Below, one piece after another: positions 16,840-29,502 of a stretch of 35,506 bases of DNA. The first letter of the stretch is position 1, and each line of letters starts with the position of its first letter. This DNA comes from Acidobacteriota bacterium (GTDB lineage: Bacteria > Acidobacteriota > Thermoanaerobaculia > Multivoradales > J023), in NCBI GenBank assembly GCA_029263395.1, contig JAJCXO010000103.1, positions 1-35,506 on the forward strand, given 5' to 3'. Under the pieces are notes generated by a model, which saw only the letters and a list, made by a program, of their open reading frames with translations, made no database searches and was not told the origin of the DNA. A program made the position numbers and the translations under genes.

Positions 16840-17673
16840 CTATTCGTGCTCGTCGTTGATTTTCATGACATTGGACTCGACCAGTCGATGGTTGGGGAAA
16901 ACCAAGTCACCCTCCGCAGTACGCACCACCGACGTCAACGTGCCTATGCCTTGAAGCTCGCCAACATTCGCGTCAAGCTTGACCCGGTCACCGGCCCGGA
17001 ATCGCTCGCGTGCGTAGTAGCCAGAGAGCATGTTGCGCGCCACCTCTCTGCTTCCAAGGACGAAGGCGAGGGCCAATGCTGCGGCCAGGATCGTCAGTAA
17101 GTTGCCGAGCGTCGCAGAGAGGAAGCCGACATCAAAGCCGAGATGATCGAACACAGCCAGGAAAGTGACCAGGAGGATCAGCCCTTGGACGACCCCGGCC
17201 AGGGCTCGATGTTGGGAGAATTCGAGACGCGAAAGCGCAGCGCCGAAAGCCTTGCTGAGAAAGCCTGCCACAACCGCACCAAGGAAGAGAAAGAGCACTG
17301 CACCAACAACACGGGGCAGGTACGCAATAAAGGAGCGGAGCGGAATCGCTGTGAGGCCAAAACCAAGATTTTCGACCGCCAGTACCACGAAGACAAGCTG
17401 GACGATCCAAAAGACCATCCGGCCGACGATCTCTGACGGTGCGAGCTTGATTCTGGCGCGTTCCAGCGTTTCACGCCAACCGGTTCGGTCCAAGCCATCG
17501 TCAAGGTTGAGTCGACGAACGAGCCTTTTTGCAGCACCGCCAAGCAGGCGGCTGACCAACCAGCCGACGGCGAGCAGCAAGAGAGCCGCCAGCAGGTTGG
17601 GAAGGTAGGTCACGACTTGATCGAAGAGAGCTTCGAATGCTCTACGTGCTGGATCGAGTTGCTGGCCCATCAT
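16840..17673 (-). CDS. MscS-superfamily mechanosensitive channel (small type)
   Basis: 277 residues with several transmembrane helices. After a cytosolic or periplasmic N-terminus come LPNLLAALLLLAVGWLVSRLL, VGRMVFWIVQLVFVVLAV, LPRVVGAVLFLFLGAVVAGFL, VVQGLILLVTFLAVF and a pore-like Ala/Gly-rich helix (LGNLLTILAAALALAFVLG). A short MscS beta domain then follows (RFRAGDRVKL, GIGTLTSVVRTAEGDLVFPNHRLVES), and the protein ends there. The C-terminal vestibule domain of classical MscS is missing, which some pfam05552-type members also lack. The ATG overlaps the stop of the anti-sigma gene as ATGA, the last of two such overlaps in a sigma/anti-sigma/channel operon. Confidence 0.9.
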   Translation of the reverse strand: MMGQQLDPARRAFEALFDQVVTYLPNLLAALLLLAVGWLVSRLLGGAAKRLVRRLNLDDGLDRTGWRETLERARIKLAPSEIVGRMVFWIVQLVFVVLAVENLGFGLTAIPLRSFIAYLPRVVGAVLFLFLGAVVAGFLSKAFGAALSRLEFSQHRALAGVVQGLILLVTFLAVFDHLGFDVGFLSATLGNLLTILAAALALAFVLGSREVARNMLSGYYARERFRAGDRVKLDANVGELQGIGTLTSVVRTAEGDLVFPNHRLVESNVMKINDEHE

Positions 17674-18038
17674 TTGTTCCTTGGAGGTTGGACAGAAAAT
17701 ACCGAGAAGACGTGGATGACCGGCCGAAGTAGGCCCAGCAGTACAATGACGAAGCCGTTGCTGCCCAGATCGAGGAACTTTTCGGCCAGATTCGCCTGGT
17801 GAAGTCGAGCAACGAGGCGCTTCTCGAGTGCCTCCGCGGTGACGCCATCCATCTCGGTCGGTACCGGGTCGCGGCGCGGTAGAGCTTCAGCCCAGATCAA
17901 CTCGCTCAACTGCTGGCATCGCTCACAACCCTCGGCGTGCGAGAGCACCGAAGAAGATCGATCGGGATCCAGCTCACCGGAGAGCAGCTTGACCAAGTCT
18001 TCGGTAGGCGGATGGTGGTCGGTGTTCTTCATGGTCAT
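17670..18038 (-). CDS. zinc-finger anti-sigma factor with C-terminal hydrophobic segment
   Basis: 122 residues. The zinc-associated anti-sigma pattern is present: His8/His9, then about 25 residues, then His34-x3-Cys38-x2-Cys41 (SHAEGCERC). It binds ECF sigma factors in known cases. Residues about 94-115 (NGFVIVLLGLLRPVIHVFSV) are hydrophobic and could anchor it in the membrane, although the segment contains Arg and His. The ATG overlaps the stop of the sigma gene (ATGA, 18035-18038) and its own stop overlaps the MscS start. It is therefore co-translated with both its likely sigma target and a mechanosensitive channel. The role of the C-terminal segment is inferred. Confidence 0.88.
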   Translation of the reverse strand: MTMKNTDHHPPTEDLVKLLSGELDPDRSSSVLSHAEGCERCQQLSELIWAEALPRRDPVPTEMDGVTAEALEKRLVARLHQANLAEKFLDLGSNGFVIVLLGLLRPVIHVFSVFSVQPPRNK

Positions 18039-18622
18039 TTGGCCTCCGGCTTCACAGATCGCAAAACAACCGCCAGAGCGGCTCGGGCTCGCAGAACCCG
18101 CATTTTGACAGCACTCAGCGAAATGTTCAGCTGGGCAGCGATCTCTCGGTAGGGCAGCTCTTCCAGATCAGCGAGTTGCAAGATTTCCTTCTCCGTTGCG
18201 GCAAGCTCACCCATCGCGGTGAGCAGACGCTCGCGACGTTTCGACGCCTCCGTGTTGGCAACGGCAACAGAGTCGAAGACTGCCATCTCCGACGTGACTT
18301 CGTTCTGCACCATCGGCAAGCGTCGAGCGCGGCGGCGGAGCTCGTTCTTGCAGGTATTGCCGGCAACTCGAGCGATCCAAGCTTGAAAAAGTGCCGACTG
18401 TCCTCCTTCATAGCCACCGAGCCCCCGAAGTGCGCGTAAGAACGTCTCTTGTACCATGTCAGCCAGATCCTCCCGATTGCGGAAGTAGCGTCGGCAGACC
18501 GACCAGACGAGTTGCCTGTGGCGGCGAAAAAGCTCCGACCACAAGCGCTCGTCGGACGCCCCGCTAGCCAGGCAGCGAGCGACCAGCTGGTCGTCGCTGA
18601 GATGTTCGAAGTCTGTCGACAT
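18035..18622 (-). CDS. ECF RNA polymerase sigma factor
   Basis: About 195 residues from the ATG at 18622. I chose this start because the sigma fold begins there (MSTDFEHLSDDQLVARCLASG); the frame stays open to 18859 without protein-like content, and no strong ribosome-binding site is seen at either. Region 2 contains LWSELFRRHRQLVWSVCRRYF and REDLADMVQETFLRALRGL; region 4 contains LEELPYREIAAQLNISLSAVKMRVLRARAAL, a standard helix-turn-helix. It resembles RpoE-like ECF factors with zinc anti-sigma partners. The adjoining overlapping anti-sigma gene is the likely regulator, and the operon probably responds to an envelope or osmotic signal. Confidence 0.92.
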   Translation of the reverse strand: MSTDFEHLSDDQLVARCLASGASDERLWSELFRRHRQLVWSVCRRYFRNREDLADMVQETFLRALRGLGGYEGGQSALFQAWIARVAGNTCKNELRRRARRLPMVQNEVTSEMAVFDSVAVANTEASKRRERLLTAMGELAATEKEILQLADLEELPYREIAAQLNISLSAVKMRVLRARAALAVVLRSVKPEAK

Positions 18623-18795: not shown

Positions 18796-18821
18796 AGCTC
18801 TGAGCGGCGCCGCTCAGAGCT
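18796..18821. repeat. perfect 26-bp palindrome
   Basis: AGCTCTGAGCGGC (18796-18808) is followed directly by its exact complement GCCGCTCAGAGCT (18809-18821). It lies 174 bases upstream of the sigma start and 355 bases upstream of the RimK-like start. It could be an operator for a dimeric regulator, or a hairpin with a tiny loop. Confidence 0.85.
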
Positions 18822-18956
18822 GCTGGTGTGGCGATAGCCGCCCTGCCCGAGCCAAGCATGAATCTGCTTCTTCCCGTGGTGTTTGTGGTGAGTCACTTGA
18901 TGTGGAAAGCGTCGCTTGCTCACTTGCTGCTAAGTAAGACACCAAGATCAACTCAC

Positions 18957-19007
18957 CGGTCACATCGAACTTGAATTGGACCTCTCTTGCGGCATCCGAT
19001 GTGACCG
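18957..19007. repeat. 11-bp inverted repeat with 29-base spacer
   Basis: CGGTCACATCG (18957-18967) and CGATGTGACCG (18997-19007) are exact complements. The spacing would suit a stem with a large loop or two half-sites about three helical turns apart. Function unknown. Confidence 0.7.
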
Positions 19008-19175
19008 ATCGACGACGGATGGTGTTCTTCTTGTTAATGCGACCACTGAATTCTGCGCGTCGTCGAGACCTGCCGACCTTGGCCCCGACAGCTCAAACCT
19101 CAGACGCAAGCCAACAACCTGACTGAGCCCGAGGCGACAAGGCTGGGTCCCAACCAAAGAAAGAAGAATCCTTTT

Positions 19176-20372
19176 ATGAAGATAGCGATCTTGTCCCGCT
19201 CAGCCGCGGCCTACAGCACGAAACGTCTAGTGGAGGCAGCCAAGGCACGCGGCCACGAAGTCGACCTGGTGGACGTCCTGAAGCTCTCGATCTCGCTCGA
19301 AGAGAGTTATCCGGACATCCACTGGCGCGGTAAGCCGCTAGATCATTTCGACGCGGCAATTCCACGGATTGGCGCCTCGGTGACCTTCTTTGGAACCGCC
19401 GCAGTCCGGCAGCTCGAACAGATGGACGTGTTCTGCGCCAACTCAGCTCAGGGCATCACCAACTCACGGGACAAGCTGCGCTGTCTCCAAATCCTGTCGC
19501 GCCATGACATCGGAATTCCCGCCACCGAGTTCGTCGGCCAGCGCAAGGATGTGATGCCGGCGATCGAACGCGTGGGCGGTGCGCCAGTGATTATCAAGTT
19601 GCTCGAAGGTACCCAGGGCGTCGGCGTGATTCTGGCTGAGTCTACGGCGGTGGCGGCAGCGATTGTCGAGACGTTGCAGAGTACCAAGCAACATGTGTTG
19701 ATCCAGAAGTTTGTCGCCGAGTCCAAGGGCAAAGACGTACGGGCCCTGGTTGTCGGTGACCGGGTGGTCGCAGCAATGCGTCGCAGTGCTCAGGGCCAAG
19801 AGTTTCGTTCCAACGTCCACCGGGGCGGTCGCACGGAGGCCCTAAAGCTCGATCCCGTTTATGCAGAGACAGCGGTTCGGGCGGCACAAATCGTTGGTCT
19901 TAGGATCGCCGGAGTCGACATGCTCGAGGGTAAAGACGGTCCCCAGGTGATGGAAATCAACTCGTCGCCGGGCCTCGAGGGAATTGAGGGTGCTACCGGC
20001 ATGGATATCGCGGGCGCGATCGTCGACTACGTCCAGGAGCAAGTGCGCTTCCCTGACCTCGACCTGCGTCAACGTCTCACCGTCAGCCTCGGTTCAGGTG
20101 TTGCGGAGATTCCGGTAGGCGAAGGCTCAGAGCTGATCGGTCGCACCATCTCTGCCAGCGGCCTACGCGAAAAGGACATCGTGATCATGACGCTGAATCG
20201 TGACGGCAAGGTCATCACCAACCCACGGGTAGATCGGCAGTTGCAGGCCGGCGACCGCCTCCTATGCTTCGGCAAGCTCACATCAATGAGGGAGTTCGTG
20301 CCCGAACGCAAGCCACCGCGAGTCCGCAAGCTGCGATCTGGTAACACCACGCTCGTTGCAGAGAATCTGTAA
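19176..20372 (+). CDS. RimK-type ATP-grasp glutamate ligase fused to an RCK_C (TrkA-C) domain
   Basis: 398 residues. Residues 1-295 are close to full-length E. coli RimK (MKIAILSR, HFDAAIPRIGASVTFFGTAA, VIIKLLEGTQGVGV, FRSNVHRGG at 210-218, VMEINSSPGLEGIE at 258-271), the enzyme that adds glutamate residues to ribosomal protein S6. Standard RimK ends here at about 300 residues. The extra 100 residues contain an RCK_C/TrkA-C domain at about 308-375 (AEIPVGEGSELIGRTI, NRDGKVITNPRVD, QLQAGDRLLCFG), a module that binds ligands such as c-di-AMP in ion-transport proteins. All ATP-grasp residues appear intact. It starts a plus-strand run with envelope and transport genes. S6 may still be the substrate, but the fusion suggests ligand control. 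Confidence 0.9.
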   Translation: MKIAILSRSAAAYSTKRLVEAAKARGHEVDLVDVLKLSISLEESYPDIHWRGKPLDHFDAAIPRIGASVTFFGTAAVRQLEQMDVFCANSAQGITNSRDKLRCLQILSRHDIGIPATEFVGQRKDVMPAIERVGGAPVIIKLLEGTQGVGVILAESTAVAAAIVETLQSTKQHVLIQKFVAESKGKDVRALVVGDRVVAAMRRSAQGQEFRSNVHRGGRTEALKLDPVYAETAVRAAQIVGLRIAGVDMLEGKDGPQVMEINSSPGLEGIEGATGMDIAGAIVDYVQEQVRFPDLDLRQRLTVSLGSGVAEIPVGEGSELIGRTISASGLREKDIVIMTLNRDGKVITNPRVDRQLQAGDRLLCFGKLTSMREFVPERKPPRVRKLRSGNTTLVAENL

Positions 20373-29185: not shown

Positions 29186-29502
29186 TCTGTTCTCCAGTTC
29201 CGAGTTGGCTGATTGCCCGAGGGCGTTCTCGGATCGTCACCGAGAGACCACTGTCCTGTGCTTGTGCCCATAAAGACACCACCGGGTCGTCGTCGGTCAC
29301 ATCTATTGCCGGGCTGGCCCCGTCCTGGAAAGTAAAGATGTCGATTTCTTTTGCGAAAAAGTGACCAGAGCAGGGCATCCGGTGTTCTAGGTGAATGAGA
29401 GCGGCTAGTACGCAGTACCAGCCGCCATCTAAATGGAGCGGTCGCTGTGAAGTGTCCGGACACCTTGCATCCACCGTCTACCGCCTGATTCGGAGGAATT
29501 TC
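29186..29502. other. 317-bp divergent intergenic region with two inverted repeats
   Basis: No gene is supported. It lies between the large channel gene (minus) and the secreted barrel-like protein (plus). It contains a near-perfect inverted repeat of two 11-base arms (29401-29411 / 29415-29425, one mismatch, three-base spacer) and the perfect 12-bp palindrome GTGTCCGGACAC (29452-29463), 40 bases before the start of the plus-strand gene. Both suit operator sites. Confidence 0.55.

Follow-up and report, generated by a model that had tools for sequence, protein, structure and literature searches.

A conserved operon of an ECF sigma factor, a zinc anti-sigma factor and an MscS-like channel in Acidobacteriota, with putative control by membrane tension

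The operon and its products

The window, the whole 35,506-nucleotide stretch of Acidobacteriota DNA (contig JAJCXO010000103.1) analysed here, carries on its minus strand an operon of three genes, which encode an extracytoplasmic function (ECF) sigma factor, a zinc anti-sigma factor and a small MscS-like channel (Table 1). The initial annotation had proposed this operon from the letters alone, and domain matches bear it out for all three products. Both joints, sigma to anti-sigma and anti-sigma to channel, are ATGA overlaps, as had been read. The joint between the sigma gene and the middle gene (here the anti-sigma gene) is ATGA (13) or GTGA (5) in 18 of the 27 loci with the sigma upstream of the channel. 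The ATGA joints in the trio exceed chance. ATGA overlaps are, however, frequent in bacterial operons, and the translational coupling claimed from them is therefore likely yet generic; ECF sigma and anti-sigma pairs are common as well. An alternative in-frame ATG at 18859 would give a sigma of 274 aa. The best NCBIfam equivalog of the sigma is SigX (NF007222) with 90.4 bits, below the cut-off of 194 bits.

The channel has five transmembrane (TM) helices including the pore helix, five hydrophobic peaks and a beta domain, after which the protein ends; PF21082, the C-terminal alpha/beta domain, was not matched in it. Its structural model contains five long helices and the beta domain, with a predicted local distance difference test score (pLDDT) of 73 and a predicted template modelling score (pTM) of 0.40. 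Compared with solved structures by Foldseek, the model meets MscS (E 6e-7, TM-score about 0.3), and a profile search of the Protein Data Bank (PDB) also matches MscS at E 7e-17. The pore helix and the beta domain are shared with the MscS family (E. coli MscS, YnaI and MscK; the 171-aa MscS of PDB 9sdb), from which the window channel differs by the PF05552 part in front and by the lack of PF21082.

The anti-sigma bears the zinc pattern H9-x24-H34-xxx-C38-xx-C41. It had been annotated as Hx25HxxxCxxC; the zinc pattern is present, but the spacing from H9 is 24, and 25 is obtained by counting from H8. The zf-HC2 family matches at E 0.0015 and 19.0 bits, below its gathering cut-off of 22.2, and in four zinc-type relatives it passes twice (L020 24.6, L024 24.9), fails once (L021 18.7) and is unmatched once (L018). 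The two histidines and two cysteines are invariant in seven aligned zinc-type anti-sigmas, the window's included; the eighth (L024) keeps HxxxCxxC and not the first histidine, and HxxxCxxC is thus present in all eight intact proteins compared. A model built with the seven sequences places helices at residues 12–19, 25–37 and 39–52 and a long helix at 65–115. The HxxxCxxC head is common to the Class I zinc anti-sigmas of the ChrR, RsrA and RsiW type, and the three short helices with a fourth in the model may correspond to theirs. Unlike these, the window protein has no further C-terminal domain, and its fourth helix runs into a hydrophobic end that is common to the zinc-less middle proteins described below. 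The C-terminal hydrophobic segment of the initial annotation is found in the window (2.27 on the Kyte-Doolittle scale over 19 residues); a true membrane span is uncertain, since four of six zinc-type relatives reach 1.59–1.78.

Conservation of the trio and forms of the middle protein

The zinc-type trio was surveyed in 59 genomes, the window's own (G000) and its relatives. A scan of a genome collection gave seven matches, all in Acidobacteriota and four of them named Thermoanaerobaculia. Of the 59 genomes, 8 have an anti-sigma match and 13 a channel match; the full trio stands at seven of the eight anti-sigma loci, the remaining one (G029) being a match to the zinc head only. The trio is also present in G038, whose anti-sigma had escaped this search, which brings the intact zinc-type trio to 8 of the 59 genomes, the window's own included.

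A wider search with the channel profile found matches in 76 of 396 genomes drawn from the phylum, of which the best 30 loci were taken; G254 and G374, whose weaker matches extend into the beta domain, fall outside this set. A same-strand sigma lies beside the channel in 19 of these 30 and not in 11. The latter comprise seven channels without a beta domain, three with it (L054, L065, L067) and L059, which is cut by a contig end after a fragment of sigma region 4. An unrooted tree and a table were prepared for 38 beta-domain channels, with duplicates of one place (L026, L040, L041 and others) counted once; the seven channels without the beta domain (L061–L064, L066, L068, L069), for which no sigma was found in the available stretch, are omitted from them. 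A sigma gene was found at 29 of the 38 loci. The tree contains a zinc-type group of nine channels (support 97/94), in which L023 is decayed and the other eight go with an intact zinc anti-sigma; a group of 20 channels in trios with a zinc-less middle protein (100/100); and six channels without a sigma close by (100/99). Two channels from SigX-like loci (L058, L060) are weakly placed beside the zinc group, and L059 is long-branched.

In the zinc and zinc-less clades together, the sigma adjoins the channel at 27 of 29 loci, and the conservation across genera that the initial annotation asked a survey to look for is thereby found. The two exceptions are L027, cut by its contig, and the decayed L023. 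At the latter (L023/L038, genome G023) the sigma, the zinc head and the barrel gene are gone, and the sister's sigma used as query matches nothing there; a fragment of the TM-helix gene extends to the anti-sigma's C-terminal tail, and the channel that follows is internally deleted. A reading of G023 as an anti-sigma and channel pair without sigma was rejected, because only the tail of the anti-sigma remains, and G023 is accordingly not counted as support for a bond between middle protein and channel. A channel that varies beside an otherwise conserved sigma and anti-sigma pair was not seen among the loci examined, which were found via the channel or the anti-sigma and not via the sigma.

In all three arrangements, zinc, zinc-less and SigX-like, the middle gene lies directly before the channel. 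The sigma opens the zinc and zinc-less operons, but it comes last in the SigX-like order. That the middle gene keeps its place before the channel while the place of the sigma varies points to a partnership between middle protein and channel. The SigX-like loci (L058, L060, L074; genomes G177, G215) are Acidobacteriota loci with the Pseudomonas order of small protein, channel and sigma. The L058 sigma scores 143 bits with the SigX model, under its cut-off, the next model reaching 98; in a set of ten other trio sigmas, SigX is the best equivalog for L018 and L058 only.

The middle proteins of the zinc-less clade are short, 74–88 residues in 16 sequences, and HxxxCxxC is found in none of the 16; in the six that were scanned, no Pfam or NCBIfam family matched with an E-value below 0.04. 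In profile comparison (hhalign E 8.5e-5, probability 60%) the group aligns with residues 63–122 of the zinc anti-sigma, from which we infer that the zinc-less form retains the fourth helix and the hydrophobic end. In known anti-sigma structures helix 1 contacts sigma region 4 and helix 4 contacts region 2, according to the available portion of PMC7406223. The middle protein of the SigX-like locus L060 matches the zinc-less profile weakly (9.7 bits, a score that none of 2000 shuffles reaches; hhalign P 7e-4, probability 26%), and against the zinc-type profile 219 of 2000 shuffles score as high. The three forms of middle protein are likely related by their sequences, the third being thinly supported.

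The channels without a close sigma (L032, L054, L065, L067, L070, L087) have the same architecture of TM-helix and beta domain and form their separate clade. No same-strand sigma was seen within 2.5 kb of them in the available sequence (for L087, 625 bases upstream were covered); in a wider stretch of L067 an ECF-like sigma lies about 5 kb off. By eye their neighbours are MgtE/CBS-like, and four have one common neighbour family. One subfamily (L032, L054, L070), with CBS/MgtE-like neighbours by eye and no close sigma, also occurs on a Pseudoalteromonas megaplasmid.

The promoter word and the predicted regulon

The upstream regions of the zinc-type loci have in common the word GTGACC-N13/14-GGTGTCT. 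It was the best spaced pair in 9 of 21 regions, where shuffles never exceeded 5 in 40 trials; without the window, the same word was the best pair in 8 of 17 regions, where shuffles gave 3–4 in 60 trials. The word derived without the window is then exact at the window's two expected places, before the sigma operon and before the long TM-helix channel gene, which speaks for the self-activating module proposed below. These are two of only four exact sites at this spacing in the 10.7-Mb genome. Over the eight loci (134,031 bases) there are 21 sites with at most one mismatch, and all but one (window 25136), that is 20, precede the sigma operon, the long TM-helix gene or the outer-membrane barrel gene; 60 letter-permuted motifs gave an average of 0.5 sites and a maximum of 10. 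Before the TM-helix and barrel genes the word mostly stands as a back-to-back pair.

A shorter form, GTGAC...GTGTCT, was sought before the sigma genes outside the zinc type. The scan was given 22 loci, of which L054 has no sigma, so 21 were scanned, with no chance control. Four (L046, L051, L056, L057) have a site with one mismatch or none and seven a site with two mismatches, some of these being GTGAC with GGTCT (L029, L045, L047); no site was found in ten, both SigX-like loci included. The promoter word before zinc-less sigmas is thus suggestive only. Zinc-less trios at L046, L056, L057 and L080 5387 have GTGAC-type sites before the sigma with −10 words GTGTCT or GGTCT; such variable −10 words, in a comparison made without a chance control, may suggest a shifted promoter specificity. 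In the window the stretch from the predicted promoter to the start of the sigma gene includes a perfect 22-base palindrome, CTCTGAGCGGCGCCGCTCAGAG, at 18798–18819. It is the sole copy in the genome even when up to three mismatches are allowed, and it may form a leader hairpin.

Of the candidate targets, the long TM-helix gene occurs with the trio at every one of the eight zinc-type loci, lying about 9 kb off in the window and near or adjoining elsewhere. The full MscS gene that follows it is possibly on the same transcript. At L039 an MscS gene stands directly before the sigma, and its product is 57% identical over residues 71–298 to that of the window gene; at L077 the TM-helix gene takes this place. 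The barrel gene is present at seven of the eight zinc-type loci, and its product is 58–67% identical in six relatives. DUF481 was matched in four of five members of the barrel family (best E 1.3e-7), the window's own being the unmatched one, and no profile match to the barrel protein in the PDB lay below E 0.6. Among the 59 genomes the barrel gene and the zinc trio occur together in 7, the trio only in 1 (G015), the barrel gene only in 1 (G006) and neither in 50, G023 included (Fisher p 1.8e-7, uncorrected for shared ancestry). The barrel gene of G006 is split between two frames, and neither a trio gene (in 16.6 kb) nor the promoter word (in the 4.4 kb scanned) was seen with it. In 297 genomes drawn from the phylum the barrel gene was found in G000 and G038 only.

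The rimK gene was also considered. An exact promoter site precedes a rimK in G038, and no site with up to two mismatches was found at the other 15 of 17 rimK loci. With the promoter at only 2 of the 17, rimK was rejected as a core regulon member and may be an accessory one in this genome. Three rimK copies exist in the genome, at window 19176–20372, C10:92649–93818 and C107:4949–5917; the window's copy and that on C10 are 88% identical, and the C10 and C107 copies each lie less than 5 kb from an MscS gene.

Between 16840 and 31113 the window encodes a Na/Ca exchanger, CorC, DUF502 and the barrel protein together with four channels of the MscS or TM-helix type; by its gene content this span is an ion and envelope island. 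The sigma most likely drives its own operon, the outer-membrane barrel and further channels, as a small, local and self-activating envelope regulon.

Table 1. Genes and predicted promoters discussed, in window coordinates (promoter sites are compared with GTGACC-N13/14-GGTGTCT).
Feature	Position	Strand	Remarks
Small MscS-like channel, 277 aa	16840–17673	-	PF05552 1e-20; PF00924 2.5e-4, 21.5 bits (cut-off 20.2)
Zinc anti-sigma, 122 aa	17670–18038	-	HxxxCxxC head, C-terminal helix, hydrophobic segment
ECF sigma, 195 aa	18035–18622	-	Sigma70_r2 2e-18; Sigma70_r4_2 8e-14; start ATG 18622
Predicted ECF promoter of sigma operon	18937–18963	-	exact, GTGACC-N14-GGTGTCT; 314 nt before ATG 18622
Predicted ECF promoter toward rimK	19001–19027	+	GGTGTTC form, two mismatches
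RimK-type ligase with TrkA_C domain	19176–20372	+	possible accessory regulon member, this genome
Full MscS channel, 305 aa	26402–27319	-	PF00924 and PF21082; 72 nt after TM-helix gene
Membrane protein, 597 aa	27392–29185	-	four PF05552 TM-helix repeats (E 2e-49); predicted regulon member
Predicted ECF promoter of long TM-helix channel gene	29274–29300	-	exact match
Predicted ECF promoter of outer-membrane protein gene	29361–29387	+	GGTGTTC form, two mismatches; relatives with same divergent arrangement
Outer-membrane beta-barrel protein, 536 aa	29503–31113	+	apparent signal peptide (by eye); predicted regulon member

Relation to SigX and the question of the sensor

The initial annotation knew of no described system of this form. 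One of the same kind exists: SigX of Pseudomonas aeruginosa with CfrX, the MscS-like CmpX and OprF (ECF102) is reviewed as the "mechanosensing complex" case among ECF sigmas, with one system studied (PMC8999054, PMC7641640; statements on Pseudomonas follow the available portions of the papers cited). SigX drives cfrX-cmpX, largely oprF, and its own gene, and sigX mRNA rises on membrane stiffening (PMC7641640, PMC3832394, PMC10965496). Transcription of sigX is reduced in a cmpX deletion mutant, in earlier work cited in PMC10965496. CfrX has 84 aa, and its function was undemonstrated as of 2020 (PMC7641640).

The two systems have in common an ECF sigma, a small putative anti-sigma encoded directly before an MscS-like channel, and, as predicted for the window and as far as the Pseudomonas accounts go, autoregulation and an outer-membrane protein gene under sigma control. 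The trio of the window contains an MscS-like channel with PF05552 and PF00924, as in the SigX system, where we take Pseudomonas CmpX to carry PF05552. They differ in the sigma score given above, in the order of genes, since the sigma is first in the window operon and the Pseudomonas order is that of L058 and L060, and in the zinc head of the window anti-sigma, CfrX being presumably without a zinc motif. The barrel family matches DUF481 and no OmpA-type family or solved structure, and the large TM-helix channel gene is an addition here. The kind of system is known from one studied case, to whose SigX group the window system, by sigma score, zinc head and gene order, does not belong. As far as sequence can say, the window system may work like the SigX system. 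No literature report was found of a sigma, zinc anti-sigma and MscS operon outside Pseudomonas, and a listed ECF group with a channel neighbour may still exist. The promoter word and target set appear to be new, no description having been found in a literature search that was not aimed at the word itself.

What the sequence establishes is the operon with its conservation, the shared promoter word with its placement, and the co-occurring barrel gene. Beyond this, we give an even chance to a self-activating envelope-stress module in which the channel state would govern release of the anti-sigma and thereby the regulon. At rest the zinc anti-sigma would hold the ECF sigma, and its C-terminal helix would keep the pair at the membrane beside the co-translated mini-MscS channel. 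Membrane tension or packing would alter the state of the channel, upon which the anti-sigma would let go. The free sigma would then act at the GTGACC-N13/14-GGTGTCT sites, initiating transcription of its own operon, the long TM-helix channel gene (here followed by the full MscS gene) and the outer-membrane barrel gene, and the outcome would be more channels and a changed outer membrane. From their families, the anti-sigma is expected to bind and inhibit the sigma, and this sigma to use the predicted promoter. We infer further that the anti-sigma would dock on the channel, with the channel as sensor and tension as signal. Putative control by membrane tension is a fair inference; a response to osmotic shock is a guess. 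The channel as input is favoured by the fixed place of the middle gene before it, by the shortness of the middle proteins, which leaves no room for a periplasmic sensor domain, and by the Pseudomonas relative, which is thought to work so (PMC8999054, PMC7641640) and whose sigX transcription falls in the cmpX mutant (PMC10965496).

Several observations weigh against such a module. Overexpression of cmpX leaves the expression of sigX and cfrX unchanged (PMC10965496). Confidence in the anti-sigma model is middling (pLDDT 76, pTM 0.43), and its top Foldseek matches, the anti-sigma factors ChrR, RsiW, DdvA and MucA, are non-significant (best E 0.54). The eight-locus promoter count above is a description and not an independent test, since the word was found in the same loci. 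In nine loci, spacings of 13–16 give 12 exact, 9 one-mismatch and 18 two-mismatch sites; the backward word gives 0, 1 and 9, but the wrong spacings of 25–28 still give 1, 3 and 14. The eight trio genomes hold 19 exact sites (12 at trio loci, 1 before rimK, 6 others), and 15 occur in the 51 genomes without an intact trio, which implies that some exact sites are chance; the backward control finds 3 over all 59 genomes. Channel genes, moreover, are also plain targets of the word, and the channel could be a mere output. In that case the zinc anti-sigma would sense a cytoplasmic signal, oxidation or zinc loss in the manner of RsrA and ChrR, and the channel would belong to the protective response. 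We consider this doubtful, though well worth weighing: HxxxCxxC is kept wherever the zinc-type protein is intact, and soluble zinc anti-sigma (ZAS) proteins frequently sense redox, in the available text of PMC7406223 and PMC8999054. However, the zinc head is missing throughout the other trio clade (0 of 16), although sigma, channel and C-terminal module are all retained there; the core that the trios share therefore does not include zinc. No redox gene was seen among the ten neighbours scanned, a small sample.

Alternatively, opening of the channel might shift cytoplasmic potassium, calcium or pH and free the sigma without contact. The ion-handling genes nearby (Na/Ca exchanger, CorC, MscS) would suit such a flux, and valinomycin raised sigX mRNA in Pseudomonas, which its authors read as membrane stiffening (PMC7641640, in the portion available). 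Conserved adjacency and the common hydrophobic C-terminal module favour contact, although flux is compatible with both, and we regard release by ion flux as unlikely. That the operon is generic or due to chance, with an ordinary ECF pair placed by accident before a channel gene, is very improbable indeed: the frequency of ATGA overlaps and of ECF pairs would allow it, but the sigma's adjacency at 27 of 29 loci, spread over two clades and many genera, and the shared promoter word already contradict it.

Returning to the channel as sensor, we tentatively extend that reading as follows. The tension-gated mini-MscS would directly hold and release the zinc anti-sigma and sigma pair, and the freed sigma would remake both membranes by way of the shared promoter. 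The CfrX-like helix would be the common coupling piece, the zinc head a feature of one clade only, and mechanosensing ECF sigmas a wide class in Acidobacteriota. One ECF sigma has been reviewed as controlled by mechanosensing, in the available text of PMC8999054, and the same logic would appear here in a compact operon with a recognisable anti-sigma. The predicted promoter word and its named targets make mechanical signalling from channel to sigma testable by a reporter, and the zinc, zinc-less and SigX-like forms offer a comparative set for mutating the common helix. If the reading is true, mechanosensing ECF sigmas would be widespread in Acidobacteriota and not an oddity of Pseudomonas.

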